Shown here piece after piece: positions 20,660 through 38,917 of a stretch of DNA of 38,917 nt. Position 1 is the stretch's first letter, and every line of letters begins with the position of its first letter. Position numbers and translations under genes: made by a program. The notes beneath the pieces are model-generated. The model made no database searches and had not been told where the DNA came from. It saw nothing but the letters and a program-made list of their open reading frames with translations. Origin of the DNA: a virus; IMG/VR virus record IMGVR_UViG_3300032282_003198, positions 1 to 38,917 of that record; one strand, 5' to 3'.

Positions 20660-22366
20660 TTATAACAGATTCATCTCGTATTTGAGATTACCACAGTCCC
20701 AAATACGATTATATCCATTATTTTGCATGTTCTGCCATTCTGTTAAAATAGCATCAAATTTGGGCAATTTTGATTTTAATACTTGTTTTCTGAACCCAAA
20801 TCTGTGGTATTTGTTATAATAACCATTTTTAAAATACCAATAATTTGGCGGAGATATATGTGATAGTTTCATTCCTATTGAACTGTATATATTTTTGTGT
20901 ATATATGTGAATCTACGATCTGCATAACTTATTATTTTTTTGGGGTTATGTTCGGATATAAACACTTTTAAAAACTTTGAAACAATTCCAACTATAGAAA
21001 CGGAGGTTGCAAATCTAACCAATTCGTATGTATCTTTGTTAGGGTTTTTGATTCCAAGCGCAGCTCGTTCTTTTCCAAATGTAATAACTGCCACCAATTC
21101 TTTGTTATAAAATGCACCATATCGCACGGACGATATATCTTTTCCTTGTATATGATATGCATCAAGAAATTTATCTTTTTCAACATTTGATATTTTTGAT
21201 ATTATCAATTCTCGCGCACCTATTCTTTTTTCGGATATAAAATGAGAACGCAATTTTTGTTTTACTATTTCTTTTTTGTTCTTCCACTCGTCTTCAAATA
21301 TATGAATTAGATGTATATCATTTGACTCGCACTCTTCAGTTTTTAGCAAATGATATTTTTTTGATTTTCCCGCCATCTCTGAATGCCAATATAATCCGTT
21401 AAATTCAATAGCGATTTTCTTTGATGGAATGTATATATCAAGCTCCAATCCAGATGGTAAAATATCTTTACTGTTTTCAATTATAGATTCGTTGGTGATA
21501 GATTTTATATACTCTACTATTTCTTTTTCTGCAATAGATGTTTTTTCATATTCTATCGGATTGCACTTTAAGCAGCGAGGAAGATGTCCACCGTCTATAT
21601 GATCTGAAAATATATCATTGCACAACTTGCATTGAAATTTGTATAAATTAATTCTGTCTGTGTTGATATATTCTTCTTTTGTAAATAAAGGAATATACCC
21701 AGCATTTAATTTGTGTTCATTCAGCAGTATATCGTAAAAAGCGTCAATAAATTTTTTACGCTTTGCTTCTTTGACGTGCAACATTTTACTTGGATGTTCT
21801 GCACCATATTTATCAAGATTTGTTTGCTTTATTTTTTTTCTGATATCAGATGATTGAAATGGATTTTCTACACCATTATTAAGCAAGCAAGTTTTTTTCT
21901 TTTTATCTTTTACATCACTTCGTTGAGATACATGTTCCACTCCATACAATTTAATATTATGCAATTTTGTTTTTTCTATCACATCATCTGACTGAAATGC
22001 CCAATTTACACCAAACTTTTTTTGATTTGTTTCTTGTATCGTTTTTAATACTTGTTCACTTTTTGCTGCATTATCTACTCCATATCTACTTAAACAAGTA
22101 AGTTTGGCTTTTTCCGAATTTACATATGTTTCGCTACCATACTTTTCCAACTTTGTCTTTTTAATCTTGGAAATTCTTGCTGGATTTCTTGCTACATATA
22201 TGCCACTGCATTTAGCAGAACAAGTTTTTTGATCACGCTTTATCAGTGACCAGAAAGACATATTGCAAATTTTGCAATTTGTTTCTTGCCAAAATTTTAA
22301 ATTTTTTTGCACACATACAGTGTGGTCATTTTTGCTATCATTGTCAATTTCTATATTTTTGTTCAT
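20660..22366 (-). CDS. Vsr-like (EDxHD-type) homing endonuclease with GNAT/Mom-like domain, copy 1, 568 aa
   Basis: Probable free-standing homing endonuclease. The order of parts is: an N-terminal zinc motif (CKIC..TCSAKC, about 31-53); five to six repeats of about 35 residues with the pattern KYGxExxxxSxxxxxKxxxT (about 65-200), probably for DNA binding; a second zinc motif (CKLC...CLKC, about 246-268); a nuclease core of the very-short-patch-repair type (LELDIYIPSKKIAIEFNG, YWHSE, KYHLLKT, IHIFEDEW, about 307-361, with D310, E321, H328 as likely active-site residues); and a C-terminal GNAT-like domain (about 380-520: AYHIQG, VAVITFGKE, YELVRFA, IISYADRRF, NYWYFK), reminiscent of Mom-type acyltransferases. 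It starts next to the tube terminator, inside whose stem the GAGA ribosome-binding candidate lies. Related copies are at 23055 and 27981. Confidence 0.82.
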   Translation of the reverse strand: MNKNIEIDNDSKNDHTVCVQKNLKFWQETNCKICNMSFWSLIKRDQKTCSAKCSGIYVARNPARISKIKKTKLEKYGSETYVNSEKAKLTCLSRYGVDNAAKSEQVLKTIQETNQKKFGVNWAFQSDDVIEKTKLHNIKLYGVEHVSQRSDVKDKKKKTCLLNNGVENPFQSSDIRKKIKQTNLDKYGAEHPSKMLHVKEAKRKKFIDAFYDILLNEHKLNAGYIPLFTKEEYINTDRINLYKFQCKLCNDIFSDHIDGGHLPRCLKCNPIEYEKTSIAEKEIVEYIKSITNESIIENSKDILPSGLELDIYIPSKKIAIEFNGLYWHSEMAGKSKKYHLLKTEECESNDIHLIHIFEDEWKNKKEIVKQKLRSHFISEKRIGARELIISKISNVEKDKFLDAYHIQGKDISSVRYGAFYNKELVAVITFGKERAALGIKNPNKDTYELVRFATSVSIVGIVSKFLKVFISEHNPKKIISYADRRFTYIHKNIYSSIGMKLSHISPPNYWYFKNGYYNKYHRFGFRKQVLKSKLPKFDAILTEWQNMQNNGYNRIWDCGNLKYEMNLL

Positions 22367-23054: not shown

Positions 23055-24578
23055 ATGGCAAGACCCAAGAAAAATCCTGAATATACAAACATGCTTTGCA
23101 AGACATGCCAAAAGGATTTTCAAGTAAAATGGGTCAAGCGAAATATACAAAAATATTGCTGTAAGTCATGTGCCAACAAAGACCCAGAAGTGCTGCTAAA
23201 AATGATAGAATCTCAAAAGCAAACTTCGTTGTTGAAATATGGTGTAGAATATCCTATGCAGAAAGAAAGTGTTGTAGAGAATTACAAGATCAGCATGAAA
23301 GCAAAGTATGGCAAAGAGTTTGCTCAACAAGTAAAATCTATCAACGACAAATCCAAGCGAACCAACATGCAAAACTATGGAGTTGAAAATGTACTACAAA
23401 AAAACAGTCCATTGCGAGAAAAGATCATAGATGGTTGGATGGAAAAATATGGAGTAGATAATCCGGGCAAATCTCGTGAAGTAATAGATCGCAGAAGTAA
23501 AGTAAAACAAGAAAATCATTATGAAAAGCTTTGTGCATATTTCAATGATCAACAAATAGAATGGTTAATAAAACCAGAAGAATATGATGGTTATCATTTT
23601 TCTAAGAAATACAACTTTAAGTGCAACAAATGCAATGGCGGATTTGACTCAACTGTATATGTTCCCACGGATGTATTTTGTGAGTTGTGTCATCCTGAAC
23701 GAAAAATCACAGCCGAAACATCATTGCACGAGTTTTTGGTGTCTGAACTGAATGGAAAAACCGTATCAAGGCACAATCGAACTATATTAGAAGGTAAAGA
23801 ACTTGATTTTTATATACCAGAATTAAACTTTGCTATTGAATATAATGGCTTATATTGGCACAGAGAAGGTCAAGCAAGAATGAGTAAAAACTATCATTTG
23901 GATAAAACAACAAAATGTGCGGAGAAAAATATACGATTGATTCATATCTTTGAGAATGAATGGAAGCACAAAACAAACATTGTTAAATCCATCATTCGCC
24001 AAAGTTTGGGCGGCTCAATGGTCAAAATATATGGCAGAGAATGTGAAATCAAAAAAGTTGATAAAAACAGAAAGCGAGATTTCTTGAACAATTGTCATAT
24101 ACAAGGTGATGACCGTTGTAGTGTGGCGTATGGATTATACTATAAAGATTCTCTTGTGAGTATTATGACATTTTGCAAGAGTAGATTTGATAAGAAAATA
24201 GAATGGGAAATATCAAGATTTTGTAATTCACTCAATACACGAATACTTGGTGGTGCCAGTAAATTATTCAGTGTATTTTTGGAAGATTATAAACCAAAAA
24301 GCGTGGTAAGTTATTCTGACAGACGATTTTTTACAGGAGATATATATAATAAACTGGGTATGGAGTTTGCAGGAAATACTGCACAAGGATATCATTATGT
24401 ATCGCCGGATTTTAGCACATTATTCAACCGCCAAATGTTCCAAAAATCCAAATTGAAAAATAAACTACAAAAATTTGACCCGTCGCTATCAGAATGGGAA
24501 AATATGAAAGCCAATGGATTTGATAGAATATGGGATTGTGGACATACCAAATGGATTTATAAACCCAAAATTTCTTGA
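23055..24578 (+). CDS. Vsr-like (EDxHD-type) homing endonuclease with GNAT/Mom-like domain, copy 2, 507 aa
   Basis: Same architecture as the copies at 20660 and 27981, but on the plus strand. Zinc motif CKTC..CCKSC (about 15-39); repeats containing KYGVE, YGVEN and KYGVDN (about 60-145); second zinc motif CNKC...CELC (190-212); Vsr-like core with KELDFYIPELNFAIEYNG and YWHRE (248-271; D251, E262, H269), then YHLDKT and IHIFENEW (to 303); GNAT-like C-terminal domain (about 335-450: CHIQGDDRCSVAYG, VSIMTFCK, ISRFCNS, VVSYSDRRF). It is shorter because it has fewer repeats. It has its own sigma-70-like promoter and lies back to back with the tail tube gene. Likely a mobile gene; target unknown. 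Confidence 0.82.
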   Translation: MARPKKNPEYTNMLCKTCQKDFQVKWVKRNIQKYCCKSCANKDPEVLLKMIESQKQTSLLKYGVEYPMQKESVVENYKISMKAKYGKEFAQQVKSINDKSKRTNMQNYGVENVLQKNSPLREKIIDGWMEKYGVDNPGKSREVIDRRSKVKQENHYEKLCAYFNDQQIEWLIKPEEYDGYHFSKKYNFKCNKCNGGFDSTVYVPTDVFCELCHPERKITAETSLHEFLVSELNGKTVSRHNRTILEGKELDFYIPELNFAIEYNGLYWHREGQARMSKNYHLDKTTKCAEKNIRLIHIFENEWKHKTNIVKSIIRQSLGGSMVKIYGRECEIKKVDKNRKRDFLNNCHIQGDDRCSVAYGLYYKDSLVSIMTFCKSRFDKKIEWEISRFCNSLNTRILGGASKLFSVFLEDYKPKSVVSYSDRRFFTGDIYNKLGMEFAGNTAQGYHYVSPDFSTLFNRQMFQKSKLKNKLQKFDPSLSEWENMKANGFDRIWDCGHTKWIYKPKIS

Positions 24579-27970: not shown

Positions 27971-27983
27971 TATAAATATATCA
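27971..27983 (-). promoter_or_regulatory. TGATATATTTATA element before the HAD operon
   Basis: Minus-strand TGATATATTTATA, whose TGA is the stop codon of the endonuclease gene. The TATTTATA octamer ends 4 nt from the ATG of the HAD gene. It belongs to the recurrent set at gene starts; the role is unknown. Confidence 0.3.
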
Positions 27984-29969
27984 TACCTTGGGATTGATCC
28001 ATATATATTTCAAATTTCCGCAGTCCCAAATACGATCAAACCCATTATTTTTCATATTCTCCCATTCTGTTATAGATGCGTCAAATATAGGCAATTTCTT
28101 GTGCAATACACCTTTTTGAAAACCAAATCTATGAATTAATTTATATGGGTCGGACATGTTAAAATACCAATAGTTTGGTGGAGTGACACCTTGAAATGAA
28201 AATCCAATTTTTTCATAAAATGCCCGCATCCCAGAATATCTTATATCAGCAAACGTCGTTATTTTCTCGGGTTTATAATTTTCTATAAAATAAGTCAACA
28301 ATTTTCCACCAATGCCAATGACGGGTATTTCACCCACCGCAAAACGATACATTTCATATTCATTTTGTTTTGAATGCTTTGTGCCCAATGCCACTCTACC
28401 TTTTCCAAAAGTCATCACAGCAACCAGCGTATTTTCAAAAAATGCACCCAATTTTACTGTTGAACGATCTGCTCCTTGTATATGATATGTTTGCAAAAAC
28501 TTTGAACAAACATCAGATTTTATTTCTGAAATTTTACATTTTCTGGCAAAAATGGATTTAGTGGTTATACTGGTTGTCTCACTTATTATTTTATTGCATC
28601 CAATCAAATTGAGTATTTTACGTTTTACAATATTTTTTGATAATACCCACTCGTTCTCAAATATATGAATTAGTTTTACACCTTTATCTGCGGCCATTTT
28701 TGTTTTATATATATGATATTTTTTTTCTTTTTCACCAAAAAATTCACTGTGCCACACGATTCCATCAAATTCAATAGCCACATTTTTACTGGGAATGTAA
28801 AAATCTAATTCAAGCGGAGATATAAGTTGACGATCATTTTGTTTAATCTCACATTCGGCGGTCAAATTTTCTTTTAAAAATTCCAATATTTCTAATTCTG
28901 GCTGAGACCTTGCCGACGGATTGCATTTTTGACATCTTGGGATTTTTCCGTCTTCAATCACCGCGTCAAACTGGTTGTCACATATAATACATTTAAATTT
29001 ATAAAATATCTGTTCATCGTTTTTACCTCGTGTACCCATATATTCTTCTCTTGTAAATAACGGCGCTACGTGCTCGCCCAATCTGCTTCCAGATACAATC
29101 GAATTATAAAACTTATCCATGTTCGTGCATGAAATTTGAGAAGCAACTTCTTTGTTTTGGGTGATATGCTCCACTCCATATTTTTTTAAAATTGTTTGTT
29201 TTGCCGATACGGATTGATATCCCAATGTTCCATTTTGTAATCTTTCCATCAGTCCATTTAAAGCAAAATCGCTTATCATTTGAGGACCAAAGTTAGCAAA
29301 TTTAGTTTCGTTTGATTTTTTTACAAATTCTTCCAATTTGGAAATATTTTCCACACCATACTTTTCTAACAACGTGGATTTGAGTTTTGATAAGTTATTA
29401 TAATTTTTATTACCATATCTTTCCAACCTTGTTTGAGCGGCTTTTATTGGATTTACGAAATTTTCATCTCCATACTTCGCTTTCTTTGTTGCTTTAGATT
29501 TTGAAACAAAGTCTGGAATTTGACTTGCATGAAGAACTCCATACTTTTGTTTCAAAGTTTTCTTCAAACTGGATTGTACTTTAGATTTAAATTCAGGTAG
29601 ATTTGTATACTCAGTCTGACATGCAGTTGAACATGTAACTCTGTTGTGTTGTTTATCTGTTTCAAACAAGTCGTGGCACACTGGGCATGTTTTAATAATA
29701 GGTGCAACAATTTTCTTTGAATTCATACATTTGTATGAGCAAGTTTTTCTGTATCCTTTATAATAACTGTCAAATTTTGTTGGAGAATTACAAACGTCGC
29801 ATAGTTTAGCATCTACCCCATGCATATGTTTATACATTTTTTCACCAAACGTGTTACCCTGATATTTCGAGGATACCTCGTTGTATACAGCGCGATGCAA
29901 TCGTTTTAATTGAATTCCAAAATTTTCTCGGTTGGTTTCTATAAAATGTAACAATTGTTCTTTGTTCAT
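27981..29969 (-). CDS. Vsr-like (EDxHD-type) homing endonuclease with GNAT/Mom-like domain, copy 3, 662 aa
   Basis: Longest of the three related genes. I chose the start at 29969 (MNKEQLLHFIE); the frame stays open upstream but would run through the sheath terminator and into the sheath gene. It has two N-terminal zinc motifs (CDVC..CSYKC and CPVC..CSTAC, about 57-117), repeats with KYGVL, KYGDEN, RYGNKN, KYGVEN and KYGVEH (about 142-270), a third zinc motif (CIIC...CQKC, 327-349), and a Vsr-like core with LELDFYIPSKNVAIEFDG and VWHSE (386-409; D389, E400, H407), then KYHIYKT and IHIFENEW (to 441). A GNAT-like C-terminal domain follows (YHIQGADRSTVKLGA, VAVMTFGKG, YEMYRFA, ITTFADIRY, NYWYFN). 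It sits directly after the sheath terminator. Confidence 0.82.
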   Translation of the reverse strand: MNKEQLLHFIETNRENFGIQLKRLHRAVYNEVSSKYQGNTFGEKMYKHMHGVDAKLCDVCNSPTKFDSYYKGYRKTCSYKCMNSKKIVAPIIKTCPVCHDLFETDKQHNRVTCSTACQTEYTNLPEFKSKVQSSLKKTLKQKYGVLHASQIPDFVSKSKATKKAKYGDENFVNPIKAAQTRLERYGNKNYNNLSKLKSTLLEKYGVENISKLEEFVKKSNETKFANFGPQMISDFALNGLMERLQNGTLGYQSVSAKQTILKKYGVEHITQNKEVASQISCTNMDKFYNSIVSGSRLGEHVAPLFTREEYMGTRGKNDEQIFYKFKCIICDNQFDAVIEDGKIPRCQKCNPSARSQPELEILEFLKENLTAECEIKQNDRQLISPLELDFYIPSKNVAIEFDGIVWHSEFFGEKEKKYHIYKTKMAADKGVKLIHIFENEWVLSKNIVKRKILNLIGCNKIISETTSITTKSIFARKCKISEIKSDVCSKFLQTYHIQGADRSTVKLGAFFENTLVAVMTFGKGRVALGTKHSKQNEYEMYRFAVGEIPVIGIGGKLLTYFIENYKPEKITTFADIRYSGMRAFYEKIGFSFQGVTPPNYWYFNMSDPYKLIHRFGFQKGVLHKKLPIFDASITEWENMKNNGFDRIWDCGNLKYIWINPKV

Positions 29970-30025
29970 ATGGATAAATATATGAGAACCCAACAAAAAC
30001 GCAAGATATTTTTTGTTGCGGGTAC

Positions 30026-30060
30026 AAAAAAAAGAACCCACCAAGAAATTGGTGGGTTCT
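30026..30060 (-). terminator. strong intrinsic terminator after the tail sheath gene
   Basis: Perfect 10-bp stem, AGAACCCACC / GGTGGGTTCT, with an 8-nt loop, followed on the minus strand by eight T. It lies 21 nt after the sheath stop codon and 57 nt upstream of the endonuclease start. Confidence 0.93.
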
Positions 30061-30081
30061 GTATAGGAGAATATCGGTATT

Positions 30082-33060
30082 TTATGCTCCAGGGAACGTG
30101 GCCCCGGTTGGTAACACATTAAAATCGAGTACGATAAATTCTGCTGTACGTGTTGGTTGAATATAGATTTGTCCGTATAGGATATTTCTATCAACCAAAT
30201 CAGGAGTGTTGTTGCTGTCATCCATGATTACCTTGAAGGCATAGATACCAGAACGTTGTTGCACACTCTCCAAGTATGGATTGACGATGTTCAAGAAACG
30301 TTGACGAGTTGTTGATACATTCTGCTCAAACACTAAGTAGCGAGAAGAAGATGCAATGAACTTCTTCAATGCAATCAACAGACGACGAACGTTGATACGA
30401 TCCAGTGCGGAAGGATTGCGTTGAAGTGTCTTTTGACCCCATGCTACCACACCTTGACCTGGAAATGCTGCGATTGGGTTTACGTGACCTTCATATAGAG
30501 TGTCGCGTTCGGTGTGTGTCAAACGGTCAGCAACTTGTACCGCTTGTGGAATACCACCACGGTTTAGACCAGCCGGAGCAAACCATTCAGCAGCCACCTT
30601 GTCATTGGCGGCAAATACGCTCATCATAACAACAGATGGTGGAACTGCCATGATCTTGTTGCTGTTGGTATCAACAATCTTTACCCAAGGATAGTAGGTA
30701 CCTGCATAATTTGTATCAAACTGAGACGCCAAGTCTACTACTGTTTGGATAGAAGCTTCTCCAGCCATCTGGTTGTGCGAAATGTCCATGATATAGAATG
30801 CATCGCCACGGTTTTCGCAAGTTTCAATAACCAGCGAAGCGACATATGGATGATCTTGATATTCAATACCAGGAACTGTGATAAGATTGAAATCAAACTC
30901 ATCGGCGTTACCAAGTGCAGCCAAACATTGTTTGTATGCATAAGAACCGTTGCTCTTGTTTGTCGAGCAGTCCAAACCTTGCTGATTTGTTGGTAGAATT
31001 TCATTTCCAACCAGAACCGGAACAGATGGCGATTGACCGTCAAATCCACCTTGGAACCCAAGGATGAAACGACGTTTCTTGACGTTGGAGGTTTCTTCGC
31101 TGGCAACATACAATGGAGTGATACCGCAGTTTGTTTCCAAGTCAAATGCAAAGTTTGCACCAGTTGAAGAACCAAGTGGGATCGGCGCAAAATATTGCTT
31201 GTTGTCAAGTTCTGGACCAACCGAACTACCGTTTGGATACAAAGCCAACAGATCGTCGTCGGCTTGAGACGGTGCTGGTTGGAATACAATACCAGAGCAG
31301 TAACGACCTGGTTGTAGCAAATATGCAGAAGCTGAACAATATTGCATTGCTGGCAACTTTCCAAGGCGTGCATAATCCCCACCAATTGGCGCAGCATATG
31401 GACCAAAACCAAATGGGATTGCATCAATTGGCCACGGAGATGTTGCCATCTCAACACGGACCAACTTACTCTTGTTGGCATAATCACCAAATTCAACAAT
31501 CTTACCGTTGAAGTCAATATAGTTCCAAACATCACCAATACGACGAGCAACATAGTTGCTGCTGTTAACATCCAAGTTTAGATTGTCATAGCGTTCTAGA
31601 TAAACGGGTTTTGCATCGGTGTCGGAATACTCTCTGATTGCAAGTGTAAACGAGCCATATTTTGTACCTGGAATTGAACCAGCAGACTTGACGTGACTGA
31701 TTTCCACTTTGTATAGAGTGTTGGCCGAAGTACCATCACTCAAAGTATGAACCTTGAACAAGTCATAAGCCAGCGAAGCTGATGTATTGAAACCAGCAAC
31801 TTTTTGTGAGCTAATGAATGGAGTATAAGCATTGGTCAAGTCATAAACAGATGTTCCCACGTCTGGTGTAATACCATCTGTGAAAGCCATGTTGTCGCGA
31901 GAAGAAATTTGGATCTTCCAGCTACCAGATGCCAACATTTCATTGATAACTTCTTTTGTTTTGTTCTTGAAGTTTTTGTAGGTGTAAGCGGCTTCGATCT
32001 TTTGGCCAGCAGCGACTGGATAATAACCAGCCTTTGGATCAGTACCAAACACGTTGGTTAGATAAGCAGAAGATTCTGTATCCAACGATACGGTGTATGT
32101 TCCATAAGAACTGCTGACGTATTTGTTTGTGTCTGTATCAAGGTGAACATCATTTAGTTCCAAACTATAATCTGCACCAATGACGGCGGCATTGCTTGGA
32201 GTTAGAATTGAACCACTGAAACCGAATAGATTTTGTCCGCGATCATATGCAGTATTAGCCAGAACAGCCAACACAACTTCATCGCGACCAGCAACCACTG
32301 ATGAGCTTCCGCAAGCATCTTCTTCAGATATTGCATCAGGTGTCCAGTCATTGACATCCAGAGCACCATATGATCCGCTCAAAATACCGGTAATAGACAA
32401 TTCACTGTTGCAATCATTGATTGGAGTTAATGTGATCACAGCATTGTAAACATCGGCTGGACCAGTTAGGTTTGATGAATATATAGTCAACAAATCAACC
32501 GATGATGAATAGAATGAACTTATAGAAGAACTGGTATTTCCGGCGGCGGTGACAAAAGCAATATCACCAACAACAACCGTGGAACCAGAGTAGATACCAG
32601 ATGAGAATTCCAAGCTCAATGAGCCTGAAATAATAAATTCACCAGCTACATTTGTATATGTGTAAGAAGAGTTCAACAATGCACCGCTGAATGAACCGGA
32701 CTCAACAAAGCGTCCGTATTGACCGGGAATTGCACTGATGACCAAAGCATCTTTTTGTTCATAGCCGCCCAATCCACCAACGCGGCAGACTGTGACTTGA
32801 CCTTGCTGACGCAAGTATTGTTGTGCGGTAATTGGACCATACAGTGTACCATCAGGTTCACCGAAGATGCTGTTTAGATCACCCTCGCTGGTTATTACCG
32901 TTGGAGAAAATCCTGGTCCCTTGTTAAAGGGAGCAACGACTACTCCTCCGATTGCTGCTACACCCTGTGCCAGAAACGATTGGTCAATTTCACGGGTGAA
33001 TACACCTGGTGAAACGATACGTTCTGAAGGGCTATAATTTCCATTTTGTTCTATTGCCAT
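30082..33060 (-). CDS. 18: tail sheath protein (gp18-like)
   Basis: Contractile sheath subunit. The N-terminus has the family signature SPGVFTREIDQS (about residues 17-28) and GGVVVAPFNKGPG. The C-terminal region is the typical conserved part: PSALDRINVRRLLIALKKF, SSRYLVFEQNVSTTRQRF and GQIYIQPTRTAEFIVLDF, which provides the strand exchanged with neighbouring subunits. The middle (about 100-600) holds large beta-rich, Ser/Thr/Tyr-rich insertions, so at 992 aa it is far longer than T4 gp18 (659 aa). It has an AGGAG Shine-Dalgarno 10 nt from the ATG. Terminators lie on both sides, so it is probably transcribed alone. Confidence 0.95.
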   Translation of the reverse strand: MAIEQNGNYSPSERIVSPGVFTREIDQSFLAQGVAAIGGVVVAPFNKGPGFSPTVITSEGDLNSIFGEPDGTLYGPITAQQYLRQQGQVTVCRVGGLGGYEQKDALVISAIPGQYGRFVESGSFSGALLNSSYTYTNVAGEFIISGSLSLEFSSGIYSGSTVVVGDIAFVTAAGNTSSSISSFYSSSVDLLTIYSSNLTGPADVYNAVITLTPINDCNSELSITGILSGSYGALDVNDWTPDAISEEDACGSSSVVAGRDEVVLAVLANTAYDRGQNLFGFSGSILTPSNAAVIGADYSLELNDVHLDTDTNKYVSSSYGTYTVSLDTESSAYLTNVFGTDPKAGYYPVAAGQKIEAAYTYKNFKNKTKEVINEMLASGSWKIQISSRDNMAFTDGITPDVGTSVYDLTNAYTPFISSQKVAGFNTSASLAYDLFKVHTLSDGTSANTLYKVEISHVKSAGSIPGTKYGSFTLAIREYSDTDAKPVYLERYDNLNLDVNSSNYVARRIGDVWNYIDFNGKIVEFGDYANKSKLVRVEMATSPWPIDAIPFGFGPYAAPIGGDYARLGKLPAMQYCSASAYLLQPGRYCSGIVFQPAPSQADDDLLALYPNGSSVGPELDNKQYFAPIPLGSSTGANFAFDLETNCGITPLYVASEETSNVKKRRFILGFQGGFDGQSPSVPVLVGNEILPTNQQGLDCSTNKSNGSYAYKQCLAALGNADEFDFNLITVPGIEYQDHPYVASLVIETCENRGDAFYIMDISHNQMAGEASIQTVVDLASQFDTNYAGTYYPWVKIVDTNSNKIMAVPPSVVMMSVFAANDKVAAEWFAPAGLNRGGIPQAVQVADRLTHTERDTLYEGHVNPIAAFPGQGVVAWGQKTLQRNPSALDRINVRRLLIALKKFIASSSRYLVFEQNVSTTRQRFLNIVNPYLESVQQRSGIYAFKVIMDDSNNTPDLVDRNILYGQIYIQPTRTAEFIVLDFNVLPTGATFPGA

Positions 33061-33162: not shown

Positions 33163-33441
33163 TTAGGCTTTTTTAGGAGAAAAAATACCGGTGTTGATAT
33201 CAAACGTACCTTCACCATATTTGGCTACGATTTTGTCCAAAAATACCTTCTCTTGATTTTCAATAGCAACAAGACGCTCGTTTATGCGAGTTTCATTCTT
33301 TTTGACTTCGCGCTTTTGTAGTTCCAATTGACCAAGCGCAAGAGTAGTTTCTTCATATCCTTGACGAATAGTAGCCAATTCATTGATTTCATCTTGGCTG
33401 AATTTGGTTGGGGCATTGGCCGTAGGTTGATTTAGTTCCAT
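33163..33441 (-). CDS. small coiled-coil protein, 92 aa
   Basis: Function unknown. A polar N-terminus is followed by a long helical coiled coil (about residues 17-75: DEINELATIRQGYEETTLAL, KKNETRINERLVAIENQEKVF), and the protein ends in KYGEGTFDINTGIFSPKKA. The pattern resembles small helical phage proteins of unknown function located near tail genes. It is the last gene before the terminator upstream of the sheath gene. It has no Shine-Dalgarno sequence. A 7-bp hairpin (33461-33483) lies in the gap upstream. Confidence 0.65.
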   Translation of the reverse strand: MELNQPTANAPTKFSQDEINELATIRQGYEETTLALGQLELQKREVKKNETRINERLVAIENQEKVFLDKIVAKYGEGTFDINTGIFSPKKA

Positions 33442-33501: not shown

Positions 33502-34212
33502 TTATAATTTGGTGTATCCAAACAATTCAAAGTCATTTTTATAAAACTGATATACGGCGTCTTTGGCTTCATTATTCAAGTAATCTACTGTTTTGTTATA
33601 TAATCCTTCTCTCGCTTTAATATTTGCAACATCTATATCGGCACGCCTTTTTGCCATATTCATAACATCCTCCATATCCGTTTCAAACTTGTATATTTTT
33701 ATTGCTTTCTTTCCAAAAATATCTTCCAGAGAAGTGTCTAATAAATAATCACATTGAGTTTCAAGATGCCCGTCGTATTTTGATATTCTTTCGAATTTTG
33801 GCAATGAAAGTCCGTAAAGAACAAAATCGGATACGGTTGGAAATTGTTGTGTAAAAGGTTTTAATTCGGGTATTCTTGTCACCAAGCCAGCCAAATAAAA
33901 ATATTCAGAAACTATTCTGGTATATGGATTTCTGACAATTGAGAATATATAATAATCTGTGGTGAATACTTCGACTGGCAACAACTTTTTTAACTCTCTG
34001 TATGTACAATGCTGTAAATTTTTTTCTTCAACTTCCGCTCGCTCTTCTAAAGTAAATTTTGAAAAATCCAATTTGGAAAAAATAGAAGATGCTTTCTTTT
34101 TGTAGGTGTAGAAATTATTATCATAAGACATATCCAACAATTTCTCCACAGAAGTTCCTCCACATTTTGGTATATGTACAAACAATGTTTTTGATTCATG
34201 ATTTATAGGCAT
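33502..34212 (-). CDS. carbohydrate sulfotransferase-like protein, 236 aa
   Basis: Probable PAPS-dependent sulfotransferase of the carbohydrate (heparan-sulfate 2-O / sulfotransferase family 2) type. The 5'-phosphosulfate loop is TLFVHIPKCGGTSVEK (residues 9-24, with K16 and the GGTS turn). The 3'-phosphate binding motif is FSIVRNPYTRIVSEYFY (90-106, with R94 and S102). A CTYRELKKLL segment near residue 69 corresponds to the acceptor side in this family. The size suits a cytoplasmic enzyme without a membrane anchor. Its ATG lies inside the end of the glycosyltransferase gene (10-nt overlap), which strongly suggests they act on the same glycan. Acceptor unknown. Confidence 0.85.
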   Translation of the reverse strand: MPINHESKTLFVHIPKCGGTSVEKLLDMSYDNNFYTYKKKASSIFSKLDFSKFTLEERAEVEEKNLQHCTYRELKKLLPVEVFTTDYYIFSIVRNPYTRIVSEYFYLAGLVTRIPELKPFTQQFPTVSDFVLYGLSLPKFERISKYDGHLETQCDYLLDTSLEDIFGKKAIKIYKFETDMEDVMNMAKRRADIDVANIKAREGLYNKTVDYLNNEAKDAVYQFYKNDFELFGYTKL

Positions 34213-35237
34213 ATGTTTTTTAATTCTAAAAACTTTTTAGCAAACTCAAGTTTTTTGGTTCCGTCCAATGTCATACCAATGAAATGAATAAGATGATAAT
34301 TTTCTATTTTGTACTCTTCAAAGAAGCTTGATCCATACACCGTATTTAATTTTTCTCTCACTTGTAATATTTTTTTGCCATTTACTTCTACAAATTTTCT
34401 ATCATACACGGACCCCACGCCCCGTGCCTCTGTGAAAGTTCCAACGGAGATAAGAGATGCGCGTGGACTAAGTACATCTTTTTTTGTTAGACCGTGTAAT
34501 CCAAAATAAAAGTTCATAAACGATTGTTCAAAAAAATATGGTCCGGGCCATACGCTCATTAGCCATATTATGTTTTCAAAATGTGCACGCATTCTTTCAG
34601 TATTATAAAACATAAACTGTCCGGCGTTGAATGGTGTGACTTGGCTGGTTTCAATGTATTTTTTGTGCTCTGGTTTTAAATATCCCAATCCAAAGAAAAC
34701 AACGTTTGTATCCCATGCATCCAATTTAACCGTGGGATTTGATGCTACTTGAATATATTTGGGATCAAACTCTATGTTAAACAATTCACAAATCGGCTTC
34801 ACACAAACAATGTCGCAATCTATGTATAGAATCTTTTTGTATTCATTGATATTTTTATATTTGAATATCTGAATCTTTTGGGCAGACGCAGCGATACCGT
34901 CTTCTGGTGATTCCACGATATGGTAATACGCAAGAAAATTCGATAAACATGATATTGCGCGGATTTTATCTACAAAATTTTCTTGCGTAATGAACAGTAT
35001 ATCAAAATTGATATCTGGAGTAAACTTAATGATGCTCTTTAAGCACATTTCCAACAAGCAAATGTAGGAATCGTCGCCCGATACTGTAAAATATACCAAG
35101 TTTTTTTGCCCAACAACACTATCGGATACAAGATCAACGAGTGACAATCTCTTGCGTAAATGTTCGTATACAATATCTTTATCTTCTAAAGTATTGGAAT
35201 ATATCGTGCTATTATTATACTTTAAAAACTTGCTCAT
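34203..35237 (-). CDS. GT8-type glycosyltransferase, 344 aa
   Basis: Probable nucleotide-sugar-dependent glycosyltransferase of the glycogenin/LgtC type (GT8). After a short N-terminal part comes NLVYFTVSGDDSYICLLEMCLKS (about 46-68), then a lysine-containing helix, ASAQKIQIFKYKNI (117-130), and KKILYIDCDIVCVKPI (134-149) with the metal-binding D140-x-D142. Later TPFNAGQFMFYN and a C-terminal NYHLIHFIG fit the acceptor and metal-binding region of this family. I chose the start MSKFLKYN at 35237 because it overlaps the upstream stop as ATGA; the frame is open 28 codons further. It is coupled to the adhesin operon upstream and the sulfotransferase downstream. Sugar donor and acceptor are unknown. 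Confidence 0.85.
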   Translation of the reverse strand: MSKFLKYNNSTIYSNTLEDKDIVYEHLRKRLSLVDLVSDSVVGQKNLVYFTVSGDDSYICLLEMCLKSIIKFTPDINFDILFITQENFVDKIRAISCLSNFLAYYHIVESPEDGIAASAQKIQIFKYKNINEYKKILYIDCDIVCVKPICELFNIEFDPKYIQVASNPTVKLDAWDTNVVFFGLGYLKPEHKKYIETSQVTPFNAGQFMFYNTERMRAHFENIIWLMSVWPGPYFFEQSFMNFYFGLHGLTKKDVLSPRASLISVGTFTEARGVGSVYDRKFVEVNGKKILQVREKLNTVYGSSFFEEYKIENYHLIHFIGMTLDGTKKLEFAKKFLELKNICL

Positions 35238-35599
35238 CCTAATATCCAATTTTGGATAGATTCGTCCCAAATATAAGTTTTGCCATCCGTTGGATATGGC
35301 ACAGGAGGATCCCAACAGCATGATGTTTCATTAAGTGTCCACGATGGATATGGTTGTGGTGGTATGAATGCATCTCTAACTGGATCATATGTATATCCAA
35401 TCCCAGCAAAATTTTTTCGAAACGGGGTTCCGCCGTTAATATGAATTCCACCTCGTGTATTGTAACTTGTCTGTAGCCAAGTACCACCAAGCCCAATGTC
35501 ATCGGCCAAAAATTCTTGGCCGCGATCCTGTTGTGAATCAGCAACCACAGCTACCTGTGTAACAATATTGTTTGTATCTATTTTTGCAAAGTGTGCCAT
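35234..35599 (-). CDS. small tail-fibre-associated protein (PYPSWTLNE family), 121 aa
   Basis: Small protein of a type common in marine myoviruses next to fibre genes. It starts MAHFAKIDTNNIVTQVAVV, has IGYTYDPVRDAFIPPQPYPSWTLNE in the middle, and ends with PYPTDGKTYIWDESIQNW. It is related to the 103-aa protein at 36479, which has the same start (MARYAKLNSNNVVTNVIV), PPPYPSWTLNE and FIWDEETKTW. The pattern of repeated small beta-strands suggests a fibre-tip or assembly component, but no function is established. It begins 3 bases after the glycine-rich adhesin gene and overlaps the glycosyltransferase gene by ATGA. Confidence 0.7.
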   Translation of the reverse strand: MAHFAKIDTNNIVTQVAVVADSQQDRGQEFLADDIGLGGTWLQTSYNTRGGIHINGGTPFRKNFAGIGYTYDPVRDAFIPPQPYPSWTLNETSCCWDPPVPYPTDGKTYIWDESIQNWILG

Positions 35600-35602
35600 A
35601 AA

Positions 35603-36475
35603 TTATTGAGCTGGATACCAAATTATAACTACTCCGGATCCTCCCGCACCACCGTAGCCGCTATATCCACCACCTCCACCGCCTCCACCCCCAGTGTTCG
35701 CAGTGCCAGATGGAGCATACCAACCACTACAGTGTTCGGTTCCATCGCTTTGACCGCCATTTGCTCCACCATAAGCGGTAGCACCGTTGCTGAATGTGGC
35801 AGTACCACAGCCAGCAGTATATCCACCAATACCACCACCGCCGCCACCTCCACCGCCTTTAGCGTGAGTAGTTACTGTGGTGTTGATTGTAACTCCAGTA
35901 CCTCCATATGAAAGACCAGAACTTGGGCCACTCGATGACGCTCCATTTCCACCACATCCACCTCCACCACCAGCAGCACCCAAACTTCCGGCACCATTGC
36001 CGCCTTGAGTACCAATTCCACTATTACCACCACCACTACCAGCGCCACCAGCACCACCACCGCAACCACCACCACTGCCAGCACCGCCTGCATAATTTCC
36101 TCCTTTTCCGCCGCCAGTTGCGGTAACACCTAATGCAGAAGAATCATTACCAGAATTTGAAGTACTTGAAGACACAGTTCCTCCAGCACCGATTACTATG
36201 CTATAAGTTCCGGCTGTTACTGTGTATGTACCGGTTCTATATCCACCCGCACCACCACCTCCACCGTTGTTGAAACCGCCGGCCCCTCCACCGGCAAAAA
36301 TAGCATAATTTACTGTTCCTCCACGGTTTGTTATAAATGAATCTGTGAATGTAAATACGTGTTGAGTATATCCGTTTGCTGTGGTTACGGTTCCGCCACT
36401 TGCGGAAAATCTTCCGAGCAAATCGCACACGGTAGTCAATTGTTGTTGAGATAAAAGATATTTTTTTAGTTGCAT
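35603..36475 (-). CDS. glycine-rich adhesin-like tail protein, 290 aa
   Basis: Probable receptor-binding or tail-fibre-tip protein. Residues 1-60 are a structured part (MQLKKYLLSQQQLTTVCDLL, then ASGGTVTTANGYTQHVFTF). It is followed by about 200 residues of glycine-rich low-complexity sequence (GGGGGAGGYRTGTYTVTAG and further Gly-Ala-Ser-Asn stretches). The protein ends in a hydrophobic GGSGVVIIWYP, a pattern common at the end of phage glycine-rich domain proteins. It shares the SGGTVT..GY..H.FT strand and the VIIG.GG core with the FN3-containing protein at 36793. Polyglycine-II sheets form the receptor-binding tip in phage adhesins such as gp38 of T4-like phages; extension to this protein is inference. 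Confidence 0.75.
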   Translation of the reverse strand: MQLKKYLLSQQQLTTVCDLLGRFSASGGTVTTANGYTQHVFTFTDSFITNRGGTVNYAIFAGGGAGGFNNGGGGGAGGYRTGTYTVTAGTYSIVIGAGGTVSSSTSNSGNDSSALGVTATGGGKGGNYAGGAGSGGGCGGGAGGAGSGGGNSGIGTQGGNGAGSLGAAGGGGGCGGNGASSSGPSSGLSYGGTGVTINTTVTTHAKGGGGGGGGGIGGYTAGCGTATFSNGATAYGGANGGQSDGTEHCSGWYAPSGTANTGGGGGGGGGYSGYGGAGGSGVVIIWYPAQ

Positions 36476-36478
36476 AAC

Positions 36479-36790
36479 TTATGCGTTCTTCCACGTTTTC
36501 GTTTCTTCGTCCCAAATAAAATCGCCCGCAGTTGATGGATATGCCACAGGAGGTGTCCATTCAAACTTTTCATTTAACGTCCAAGATGGATATGGTGGTG
36601 GAGAAAAAACAAACACGTTAGGTGATGGTACATACACCATTCCTATATTTGCGATAGGTTTATTACTACCACTTTCAAACGAACCAAGAATATATGATGC
36701 ACTATCTGGTAGCGTATCAATGATGTTTTTTTCTGCCACGATAACATTGGTAACAACATTATTAGAATTTAATTTTGCGTATCTTGCCAT
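36479..36790 (-). CDS. small tail-fibre-associated protein (PYPSWTLNE family), 103 aa
   Basis: Paralogue of the 121-aa protein at 35234: MARYAKLNSNNVVTNVIVAEK at the start, a middle with NIGMVYVPSPNVFVFSPPPYPSWTLNE, then PPVAYPSTAGDFIWDEETKTW. It lies between the two glycine-rich genes, with gaps of only 3 and 2 bases, so each glycine-rich gene is followed by one member of this family. The arrangement suggests that the pairs work together, for instance protein and chaperone, but this is inferred from order only. Confidence 0.7.
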   Translation of the reverse strand: MARYAKLNSNNVVTNVIVAEKNIIDTLPDSASYILGSFESGSNKPIANIGMVYVPSPNVFVFSPPPYPSWTLNEKFEWTPPVAYPSTAGDFIWDEETKTWKNA

Positions 36791-36792
36791 AA

Positions 36793-37857
36793 TTAATGTT
36801 TATATCTAAATTTTATAATACCAGAGCCGCCATTGCCGGAATCCATATATGTTCCACCACCGCCGGAATAACTATACACATCGCCGCCTCCACCACCATT
36901 GCCTGTATTTGCAGCACCATTTCCACTGGTTGGTCCACCAGAGCCGCCTGCGCCATATGCAGTTCCCCAAACCGAACGACCACTTCCGCCTGAACCATCG
37001 GCAACGCTAGATGCATATCCACCACCACCGCCGCCACCACCGCCACCGCCCGCAAATGCATCGTAATGAGTACCTCCTGAATATGTATTATTGCCTGAAT
37101 TTCCACCGTCGCCACCTACATCCGACACATATATATCATTTCCACTACCACCCTTGCCACCATATCCGCCGGCAGCGGATGGTGCACCGCCCAATCCGTA
37201 AATATAACTGCTACCACCGTTGTTTCCATCTGGCGCATTTCCACCGTCTATGGTATTTGTGGTCACATGGGTACCACCATCACCAATCTCAACATACCAA
37301 TTGTATGCAGGAACTTTCAGCGTATATGCAAGAACTTCTCCACCACCACCGCCACCACCCTGTCCTCCTACTTTTCCACCACCGCTACCTCCTCCGGCCA
37401 CAACCAAACATTCAATGGTGCCTGCGCCCAGAACAAGAAAATTACCGCTTGTTGTGAATGAGTGAGTTCTATAACCATCACCATCAGTTACAGTTCCTCC
37501 GCTCGCTGTAACGTATGCTTCTGTTGAAGCACTTGCTACACTAGAAGTATTCGATGTGTAAGTAAACCCATCAGTTTTATATGGCGCAACAGAATAATAG
37601 TATAATGTTTGAGGACTAAGACCAGAACTTGTATATGAAGTAACACTTGCACCAAGGGTTGCTATATTTGTGAATACAGATCCGTTATATTTATTTACAT
37701 AATAACCAGTCTCTATATTCGAATTGTCCGTCCAAGTTAAATATATATTTGATTCGTCTATTGATACAGCAGCAAGATTTGAAGCCGTGGCTGGATACCA
37801 ACTACCAGTTGTTCCAAAGATTCTTGAACTTTCAATTCTTTGTGTTAGCCTAGCCAT
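36793..37857 (-). CDS. tail adhesin with fibronectin type III and glycine-rich domains, 354 aa
   Basis: Probable receptor-binding tail protein. Residues about 25-115 form a fibronectin type III-like domain (TASNLAAVSIDESNIYLTWTD, ETGYYVNKYNG, TSYTSSGLSPQTLYYYSVAPY). Then SGGTVTDGDGYRTHSFTTSGNF leads into IECLVVAGGGSGGGKVGG, a polyglycine stretch, VPAYNWYVEIGDGG, and a long Gly/Ser/Asn/Tyr-rich tail ending in GNGGSGIIKFRYKH. The order and shared SGGTVT..GY..H.FT strand make it a paralogue of the 290-aa adhesin with an added FN3 domain. It lies at the head of a tight operon. The receptor is unknown. Confidence 0.78.
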   Translation of the reverse strand: MARLTQRIESSRIFGTTGSWYPATASNLAAVSIDESNIYLTWTDNSNIETGYYVNKYNGSVFTNIATLGASVTSYTSSGLSPQTLYYYSVAPYKTDGFTYTSNTSSVASASTEAYVTASGGTVTDGDGYRTHSFTTSGNFLVLGAGTIECLVVAGGGSGGGKVGGQGGGGGGGEVLAYTLKVPAYNWYVEIGDGGTHVTTNTIDGGNAPDGNNGGSSYIYGLGGAPSAAGGYGGKGGSGNDIYVSDVGGDGGNSGNNTYSGGTHYDAFAGGGGGGGGGGGYASSVADGSGGSGRSVWGTAYGAGGSGGPTSGNGAANTGNGGGGGDVYSYSGGGGTYMDSGNGGSGIIKFRYKH

Positions 37858-37875
37858 AAATAACCATTTAAATCT

Positions 37876-38205
37876 TTATGTGATTTCCGAACCAAATGCG
37901 TTGAAGGATACATCTGTTGTACTACCAGAAACTACAAGAACTGCACTTCCCGATATTGCTATTCCCAACGTCATTATAATGGAATCGTTTGCGGGAACTG
38001 TTGTATCATATGATAGACAGTGTTGGGTTGTTGCTGCTGTACCCGCCGTTGGTTTAACATATAATCTAAAAGTTTTTGCAGTTGAATTTGTGTTTGTTAC
38101 TATTAGTGTAGATACAACAGCACTTCCAGCTGCGGGAACTGTATAAAGAACCGCTCCAGTAGTTCCCGGCGCTGATTGACCTAAAATTTTGTATGTTGTT
38201 GCCAT
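37876..38205 (-). CDS. small tail-fibre-associated beta-protein, 109 aa
   Basis: Small Ser/Thr/Ala/Val-rich protein predicted to be all beta: MATTYKILGQSAPGTTGAVLY, VVSTLIVTNTNSTAKTFRLYV, NDSIIMTLGIAISGSAVL, DVSFNAFGSEI. Proteins of this pattern are frequent in tail regions of marine phages and are thought to be structural, but I cannot assign a position in the virion. It lies between the fibre gene at 38245 and the FN3 adhesin gene, on the same strand with short gaps. A stretch of TATATATA lies before the ATG, without a clear Shine-Dalgarno sequence. Confidence 0.65.
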   Translation of the reverse strand: MATTYKILGQSAPGTTGAVLYTVPAAGSAVVSTLIVTNTNSTAKTFRLYVKPTAGTAATTQHCLSYDTTVPANDSIIMTLGIAISGSAVLVVSGSTTDVSFNAFGSEIT

Positions 38206-38244: not shown

Positions 38245-38917
38245 TTATGCGCCCATCAATAAAAATATCGGCGTAAAATCAGTGGTTGTGGTAGATGATG
38301 CTGAATTTAGTGCATATGACGCAGTTGTTGAATATGATGATGAACCAAACAACGATCCAGTAATTCCAAGAGAGACATTCAATGAACCTGTAACAATTGT
38401 ATTTCCATTTACATCTATGCGAACTTTTTCTGTTTGAGTTCCATTTCCAGTATAAAAGCGTATTCCACCACCGTTCATAGACTCAATTAAAGCATAATCG
38501 GTTGGGCCTGAGGTAGAACCAAAGGCAATTCCAGCATTGCCAGCATCTTTATATGCCGCGATAGTATTTCCGGATGAGTTGTGAATTTGCAATCTTCCAG
38601 TTGGACTCGTCGTCCCAATACCTAAATTTGTTCCATCATCATACAAGAAGTTGCTTGATGAGATTGCGTTTGCGCCCGAGATCTTGACCAGGCGATTGGT
38701 TCCAGAGATGGTGAACGCTGCACCACTTGTTCCACTTGAACCTGTTGAACCACTGGTGCCGCTGCTGCCGCCTGTGCCACTTGAACCGGTTGAACCACTG
38801 CTGCCAGTTGATCCACTGGTGCCGCTGGAACCTGTTGATCCACTGGTGCCGCTGCTGCCGCCTGTGCCACTTGAACCGGTTGAACCACTGCTGCCAGTTG
38901 ATCCACTGGTGCCGCTG
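38245..38917 (-). CDS. collagen-like tail fibre protein, partial (5' end outside window)
   Basis: C-terminal part of a fibre. The frame is open from the right edge of the window. About 65 residues of Gly-x-y repeats (SGTSGSTGSSGSTGSSG...) come first, then AAFTISGTNRLVKISG, NFLYDDGTNLGIGTTSPTG, YALIESMNGGGIRFYTGNG, KVRIDVNGNTIVTGSLNV and a Ser/Thr-rich end. The NLGIGTTSP.GRL segment is typical of phage tail fibres before the tip. I see no S74 peptidase/chaperone domain at the end. An apparent start at 38646 is only an internal TTG; the reading continues upstream without a stop. The repeat part has a 90-bp DNA period. Confidence 0.85.
   Translation of the reverse strand, partial: SGTSGSTGSSGSTGSSGTGGSSGTSGSTGSSGTSGSTGSSGSTGSSGTGGSSGTSGSTGSSGTSGAAFTISGTNRLVKISGANAISSSNFLYDDGTNLGIGTTSPTGRLQIHNSSGNTIAAYKDAGNAGIAFGSTSGPTDYALIESMNGGGIRFYTGNGTQTEKVRIDVNGNTIVTGSLNVSLGITGSLFGSSSYSTTASYALNSASSTTTTDFTPIFLLMGA
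38731..38917 (-). repeat. 90-bp tandem repeat encoding collagen-like Gly-x-y
   Basis: The sequence starting at 38761 recurs at 38851 with almost no change over the visible 67 bases, and the flanking CACTGGTGCC is repeated at the same 90-bp spacing. It encodes about 30 residues of Gly-Ser-Thr triplets per unit and runs off the window, so the number of copies is unknown. Such a repeat can change copy number by slippage and alter fibre length. Confidence 0.8.

Follow-up and report, generated by a model that had tools for sequence, protein, structure and literature searches.

A conserved glycosyltransferase-sulfotransferase gene pair encoded with phage tail fibers and its possible role in sulfated glycosylation of the fibers

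The virions of mycobacteriophages are glycosylated by phage-encoded glycosyltransferases (Freeman et al. 2023, cited in PMC12619734), and the N-glycan on the VP4 spike of HRPV-1 contains sulfated glucuronic acid (Kandiba et al. 2012, described in PMC6137143). Sulfotransferase genes of phages (phrog_3347) have been classed among auxiliary metabolic genes (PMC8290583; PMC10580990); those in PMC10580990 are of the Sulfotransfer_3 type, and it is stated there that the function of phage sulfotransferases “remains unclear.” We found no published report of a link between a GT8 glycosyltransferase, a sulfotransferase, an APS kinase and fiber genes. Here, we describe a glycosyltransferase (GT) and sulfotransferase (ST) pair from an uncultured phage, in a stretch of 38,917 nucleotides (the window) in which all cassette, fiber, and sheath genes lie on the minus strand.

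The ST gene (33502 to 34212) encodes a 236-aa protein of the Sulfotransfer_2 type, which scored above the curated cutoff of PF03567 (56.6 bits against 22; E value, 5.5e-15) and matched phrog_3347, “galactose-3-O-sulfotransferase” (1.1e-15); in the sequence-profile search, carbohydrate sulfotransferases were the best matches. As in other members of this family, both PAPS-binding motifs, the 5′-PSB (HIPKCGGTS) and the 3′-PB (VRNPYTRIVSEY), are present together with an active-site histidine. In an alignment of 24 homologues, H13, K16, R94, P96, S102, and H68 were invariant, and H68 aligned with the histidine of the heparan sulfate 2-O- and 6-O-sulfotransferases (HS2ST/HS6ST). The AlphaFold model (pLDDT, 89.9) best matched heparan sulfate 6-O-sulfotransferase and SULTs, with a Z score of about 9.4; the Foldseek E values were weak (best, 0.084), and the best 23 matches were sulfotransferases or relatives of their fold.

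The GT gene (34203 to 35237) encodes a 344-aa protein that likewise exceeded the curated cutoff of its family, PF01501 Glyco_transf_8 (37 bits against 24.3; E value, 3.6e-9). The model and the alignment reveal the features of CAZy family GT8, namely, a GT-A fold with a DxD metal site (D140-D142) and a C-terminal histidine, and the protein also carries the motifs FNAGQF and YFFEQSF. D140, D142, and H318 were invariant among 32 homologues, and the predicted structure (pLDDT, 88.6) retrieved LgtC, glycogenin, and UGGT in Foldseek at E values of about 1e-9 to 1e-8 (LgtC 1g9r, 2.9e-9; glycogenin, 7.3e-9). A transmembrane-like stretch was absent from the sequences of both window enzymes. The chemistry of the two enzymes is well supported; it is their acceptor that we infer.

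The two coding regions overlap by exactly 10 nt (34203 to 34212; ATGCCTATAA), within which GT ends (NICL-stop) and ST begins (MPI). This bore out the original prediction of a GT8-type enzyme coupled by such an overlap to a carbohydrate-type sulfotransferase, both profile matches being above the curated cutoffs. An ATGA overlap of GT with an adhesin-associated gene had also been proposed. The overlap (35234 to 35237) is present when GT starts at ATG 35237, the start we adopted because homologues support it over the longest-ORF ATG at 35321, but the gene whose stop codon it contains encodes a short phrog_7759 protein and not the adhesin itself. This fiber-associated protein (35234 to 35599; 121 aa; phrog_7759, 1.7e-40) follows a Gly-rich fiber or adhesin protein (35603 to 36475; 290 aa; PF21722, 8.8e-9; phrog_2295, 8.3e-32), and the arrangement is repeated upstream, where a second phrog_7759 protein (36479 to 36790; 103 aa; 7.2e-17) follows a Gly-rich fiber or adhesin with an fn3 domain (36793 to 37857; 354 aa; PF21722, 5.9e-9; PF00041, 7.4e-6). 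Beyond these lie a 109-aa phrog_1276 protein that accompanies the fiber block (37876 to 38205; 2.9e-8; homologue in relative L003) and a collagen-like Ser/Thr/Gly-rich fiber truncated by the window end (38245 to 38916; PF01391, 3.1e-7; tail fiber phrog_5073, 6.3e-9), which is a plausible candidate for an O-glycan acceptor. The pair therefore does follow adhesins and a collagen-like fiber in the order predicted, except that the latter lies outside the region 33502 to 37857 to which it had been assigned. On the other side, a conserved 92-aa gene (33163 to 33441) separates the pair from the contractile tail sheath gene (30082 to 33060; PF04984, 2.9e-14; phrog_23). We also considered TATAAATA as a late-promoter motif; the window is rich in this motif relative to expectation, yet nearly every copy lies on the strand opposite to the virion genes and thus lends no support to late expression.

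The GT8-ST pair is a conserved cassette. The adjacency of the two genes is not due to chance, because, of the 34 distinct viral loci that carry this GT8 subfamily, 27 show GT followed downstream by a sulfotransferase-type gene, a count that comprises 25 profile-supported sulfotransferases (L054 is included in the 27) and 2 recognized on motif only, and that becomes 26/33 if the near-identical loci L014 and L048 are merged. Elsewhere in those loci, such a gene occurred only once among 446 genes. The gene after GT8 usually belongs to one of three ST subtypes, sometimes with a methyltransferase next; in a minority of loci, it is another glycosyltransferase. Subtype STc (L020, L064) was assigned on motif only, with L020's own protein as the search model; the L020 protein had no match in Pfam, and those STb proteins that were tested scored under the Pfam cutoff. 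GT and ST divergences were correlated (Mantel r = 0.79, P = 1e-4 for STa pairs; r = 0.88, P = 3e-4 for STb pairs), and the GT tree shows different ST subtypes combined with related GT8s. Across phages, GT8 is the constant part, a core enzyme with a variable cap. The GT/ST overlap is 10 nt in each of L001, L002, L003, L006, L029, and L067. Detecting these loci required the GT query and profiles, since single-sequence peptide patterns for ST alone gave no match in viral contigs. A tblastn search of 50,697 phage records with four GTs and three STs, the window enzymes among them, yielded as its sole match a distant ST in the jumbo phage LR756508.1, and inspection of that locus revealed no GT8 beside it. 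In the bacterial and archaeal genomes scanned, the matches listed included distant generic GT8s only.

As in a phage-encoded virion glycosylation system, the GT is encoded with virion genes. In most of the loci that could be classified, fiber, baseplate, or Gly-rich genes lie next to the pair; several large proteins adjoining it in relatives matched no family. The original prediction had named the lack of a link to fiber genes in relatives as grounds for its rejection; the link was found. Homology between the window and L001 to L003 is confined to the fiber genes, phrog_7759, GT, and ST, which keep the order fiber-phrog_7759-GT-ST with the 10-nt overlap, and the tape measure of L003 is of another type than that of the window. 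The pairs of L006 and L067 run in the opposite orientation to the fibers and so do not share a transcript with them; in L050 and L052, a GT-ST-methyltransferase-APS kinase cassette has no recognized fiber gene within about 8 kb. Among phages with the same sheath, the slot contains GT-ST, GT-ST-GT, an inverted pair, an additional GT2-like gene, or no cassette. A homologue of the 92-aa gene precedes the sheath wherever upstream sequence is available for a same-sheath locus (L200 to L218), and this gene delimits the variable slot on its far side. The nearest named backbones are those of Microcystis phage Mel-JY01 and the Flavobacterium immuto phages. L202, L211, and L215 possess Gly-rich and collagen-like fibers and lack the cassette, indicating that such fibers do not need it.

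APS kinase produces PAPS, the sulfate donor. Its gene adjoins the pair in four relatives (L001, L029, L050, and L052), including the closest relative of the window, L001, in which it is overlapped by an antisense ORF and was detected by profile. Together with the PAPS motifs kept in ST, this agrees with the predicted sulfation chemistry.

Because the pair recurs beside fibers in many unrelated phages, and because a PAPS-making enzyme sometimes accompanies it, these phages probably coat their adhesion fibers with a sulfated sugar. We propose, with a probability of roughly one-half, that the pair is a cytoplasmic two-step sulfoglycosylation cassette, encoded with fiber genes, whose most likely target is the fibers of the phage itself. 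Judging by family and motifs, which support this step well, the soluble, DxD-containing GT would use a nucleotide sugar, presumably supplied by the host, as the donor for sugar transfer. The PAPS-dependent ST would then place a sulfate on that sugar, a step that is also well supported, using PAPS from the host and, in some relatives, additionally from the adjoining phage APS kinase. The acceptor would be the phage's own Ser/Thr/Gly-rich tail fibers or adhesins, products of the same gene block made in the same cytoplasm as the enzymes. The resulting negatively charged, glycosylated fibers could modulate adsorption, serve to mimic or bind a surface, or protect the fiber. This proposal, as originally put forward, is supported in part: the two-enzyme coupling, the sulfation chemistry, and the fiber-gene linkage in relatives speak for it, while the L050 and L052 cassettes and the variable slot do not. 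Somewhat more tentatively, it may represent a widespread, undescribed phage system that modifies the phage's own receptor-binding fibers with sulfated glycans, which in some phages may be methylated as well, and that is encoded as an exchangeable block of fiber, GT8, and ST (with or without APS kinase) moving between phages with unrelated tails.

The strongest competing explanation, which we nevertheless consider unlikely, is that the pair attaches its sulfated sugar to a glycan of the host cell surface, such as lipopolysaccharide (LPS), capsule, or exopolysaccharide, and so masks the receptor from superinfecting phages. The GT fold is close to LPS and O-antigen enzymes (WbbM, LgtC) among others, the L050 and L052 cassettes lie away from fibers, and a larger polysaccharide-type cluster in LR756508.1 includes three or more sulfotransferases. 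Against this, both window enzymes appear to be soluble, the pair was not seen with a flippase, polymerase, or membrane-anchored partner, and cassette and fiber genes form a common block, usually side by side, across otherwise unrelated loci. The apparent solubility and the lack of a partner for lipid-linked glycan are tempered by the existence of peripheral GTs and by the fact that the window is a genome fragment. Less probable still is that the pair is a passenger, inserted at a hot spot between fibers and sheath, with a target unrelated to fibers; the differing contents of the slot among same-sheath phages would fit this, but loci with other structural backbones likewise have the cassette beside fibers, and gene order and overlap are preserved in L001 to L003. 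It is very improbable that the product is a small molecule or hypermodified phage DNA base bearing a sulfated sugar: DNA glycosylation by phage GTs is known (as cited in PMC12619734) and the sulfotransferase fold includes small-molecule SULTs, but the pair was not seen with any base-modifying gene, it is located at fibers, and its ST best matches carbohydrate sulfotransferase profiles. Equally hard to credit is that either enzyme is an inactive relic or the second no true sulfotransferase, for despite the distant identity to characterized enzymes and the poor Pfam scores of STb and STc, the frames are intact, the catalytic motifs are invariant across highly divergent homologues, and APS kinases are neighbors.

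Sulfated glycosylation of adhesion fibers would give a concrete, testable role to sulfotransferases, which are recurrent in environmental phages; the GT8 pairing, APS kinase partners, and fiber location all suggest it. If true, a charged posttranslational modification joins phage receptor binding, with a bearing on host range, aggregation, and particle stability, and a gene class now filed under auxiliary metabolism would be accounted for.

Compared with known enzymes, the window GT shares the GT-A fold, DxD motif, and C-terminal histidine with glycogenin and the LPS galactosyltransferase LgtC but is only 11 to 17% identical to them in structure matches; its FNAGQF and YFFEQSF motifs are phage specific, and its acceptor is a putative one. 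ST resembles the heparan sulfate 2-O- and 6-O-sulfotransferases in its PAPS motifs, aligned active-site histidine, and structure (Z score, 8.6 to 9.4), with 15 to 18% identity over the structural alignment, and, like the enzymes of PMC8290583 and PMC10580990, it is a sulfotransferase in a phage genome. HRPV-1 presents a sulfated sugar on the spike of a prokaryotic virus, comparable to the modification proposed here; as described in PMC6137143, however, HRPV-1 is an archaeal pleomorphic virus without a virus-encoded GT-ST pair, and its host carries the same glycan on the S-layer, i.e., the glycan is host made. The mycobacteriophage system shares phage GTs with the window and carries, on capsid and tail tube C termini, a glycan on virion proteins such as is proposed here; it operates in other hosts, and where PMC12619734 cites it, no ST or APS kinase is mentioned, whereas the genes of the window cassette sit at the fibers.

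The window, a linear virus record of 38.9 kb, belongs to a contractile-tailed, T4-like phage, judging from its predicted genes for sheath, tube, tape measure, baseplate hub and a UvsX-like recombinase. Its nearest named backbones are those of Microcystis phage Mel-JY01 (41.8% for the sheath, 46.2% for RecA) and of Flavobacterium phages. On the minus strand, towards lower coordinates, a collagen-like fibre gene (38245-38916, cut by the window end) is followed by genes for a 109-aa phrog_1276 protein, an fn3 and Gly-rich protein, a phrog_7759 protein, a Gly-rich protein and a second phrog_7759 protein, and then by the GT8 glycosyltransferase (GT; 34203-35237), the sulfotransferase (ST; 33502-34212), a 92-aa gene and the sheath gene. 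The original observation that both enzyme genes overlap their upstream neighbours was borne out: the GT start at 35237 overlaps the preceding stop as ATGA, and GT and ST share ATGCCTATAA.

The GT matches PF01501, and its predicted GT-A fold closely resembles the catalytic domains of LgtC, glycogenin and UGGT; residues D140, D142 and H318 are invariant among 32 homologues. The ST matches the PF03567 and phrog_3347 profiles and has a confident predicted fold (pLDDT 89.9), with heparan sulfate 6-O-sulfotransferase and SULTs as best structural matches, many of them tied (Z 9.4, rmsd 4.6, 180 residues). Its motifs for the sulfate donor PAPS are invariant among homologues, and so is a His that lines up with one in the heparan sulfate 2-O/6-O-sulfotransferases. 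Neither protein contains a hydrophobic stretch of the membrane-segment type.

Scans of viral contigs by profile and by single sequence identified this GT8 subfamily at 34 distinct loci. A sulfotransferase-type gene lay directly after GT8, or one gene further, in 27 of them, although the loci share descent and a binomial figure for this count makes them look more independent than they are; elsewhere in the 34 loci, sulfotransferases accounted for 1 of 446 genes. Three subtypes were represented: STa, that of the window (18 loci), STb (7) and STc (2, assigned by motif only). In L001, L002, L003, L006, L029 and L067, GT and ST likewise overlap by exactly 10 nt. GT and ST divergence are correlated across pairs. 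The subtypes cluster on the GT tree, yet are not separated by single splits, and thus related GTs have been combined with different STs.

APS kinase (PF01583), which makes PAPS, adjoins the pair in L029, L050, L052 and the closest relative of the window, L001 (GT 46%, ST 60% identity); L068 has an APS kinase near GT and no recognised ST there. None was found in the window, a 38.9-kb genome fragment. A methyltransferase follows ST in L012, L016, L050 and L052, and another GT replaces ST as the next gene in L017, L057 and L065. A constant GT8 with variable decorating enzymes looks like glycan building.

The predicted link to fibre genes also held in relatives: in many loci, the pair has neighbours recognised as fibre, baseplate, Gly-rich or virion proteins. 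Such neighbours are directly beside it in the window, L002, L003, L006, L009, L013, L014/L048, L016, L020, L038, L058, L064, L066 and L067, and are a few genes off in L004 and L031. L001 contains a 45% Gly fragment; the pair has large unclassified neighbours in L010, L018, L041 and L056, and a head-tail adaptor beside it in L029; no recognised structural gene was found near it in L050 or L052.

Wherever homology to the window was detected in L001-L003, it fell within GT, ST or genes of the collagen-like, phrog_1276-like and phrog_7759-like types, and the L003 tape measure is of another kind; transfer of a fibre-GT-ST block between backbones is the simplest reading of this. On the GT tree, the window GT groups with L001-L003 and L029, apart from L004, L006, L031 and L067, which have its type of sheath. 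Among such same-sheath phages, only some carry the cassette between the fibres and the 92-aa gene; it is absent there from L200, L202, L203, L204, L211, L215 and L216, and inverted in two lineages. In same-sheath L031, L004 and L218, a GT2-like gene lies directly ahead of the cassette, and L031 has the order GT8-ST-GT8.

The families and motifs of the two enzymes, together with the APS kinases found next to the pair, indicate that the soluble GT8 adds a sugar, which the coupled ST then sulfates using PAPS. Gene linkage and co-transfer make a fibre from the same block the likeliest acceptor, which would yield sulfated, glycosylated fibres. In the main rival explanation, the pair would instead modify the host surface.

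Several other window features were recorded. TATTTATA lies on the coding strand 5-40 nt ahead of several minus-strand start codons (5848, 12339, 15713, 20488, 22366 and 27966) and is present above chance (9 sites versus 3 expected); Shine-Dalgarno-like sites occur at few genes. Three large ORFs between tail genes (20660-22366, 23055-24578 and 27981-30221), with repeated KYGVE-type units and a common C-terminal part, resemble homing-endonuclease-like genes. The last, of 746 aa, overlaps the sheath gene (30082-33060) by 140 nt as listed, and probably has its real start at a more downstream position.

Sulfotransferase genes in phages are known (PMC8290583), with unclear function (PMC10580990). 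Viral contigs L130, L145, L154, L157, L167 and L172 each have between four and seven sulfotransferase-type genes arrayed within about 12 kb, and L157 has an APS kinase-like gene as well; in L137, L140, L141, L186, L188, L190 and L192, too, an APS kinase-like gene is found close to an ST. These arrays and neighbours point to a broader sulfation phenomenon in phages. In a jumbo phage (L118; LR756508.1, 304825-321439, a record without annotation), at least three sulfotransferases lie together with sugar-nucleotide-like enzymes in a cluster of the polysaccharide type. Our literature search, in which subscription journals were mostly outside coverage and absence is no proof, returned no account of a fibre-linked phage GT-sulfotransferase pair. 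Virion glycosylation is already known in mycobacteriophages (cited in PMC12619734), and the HRPV-1 spike bears a host-type sulfated glycan (PMC6137143). The fibre-linked pair would be a new form of phage virion glycosylation.
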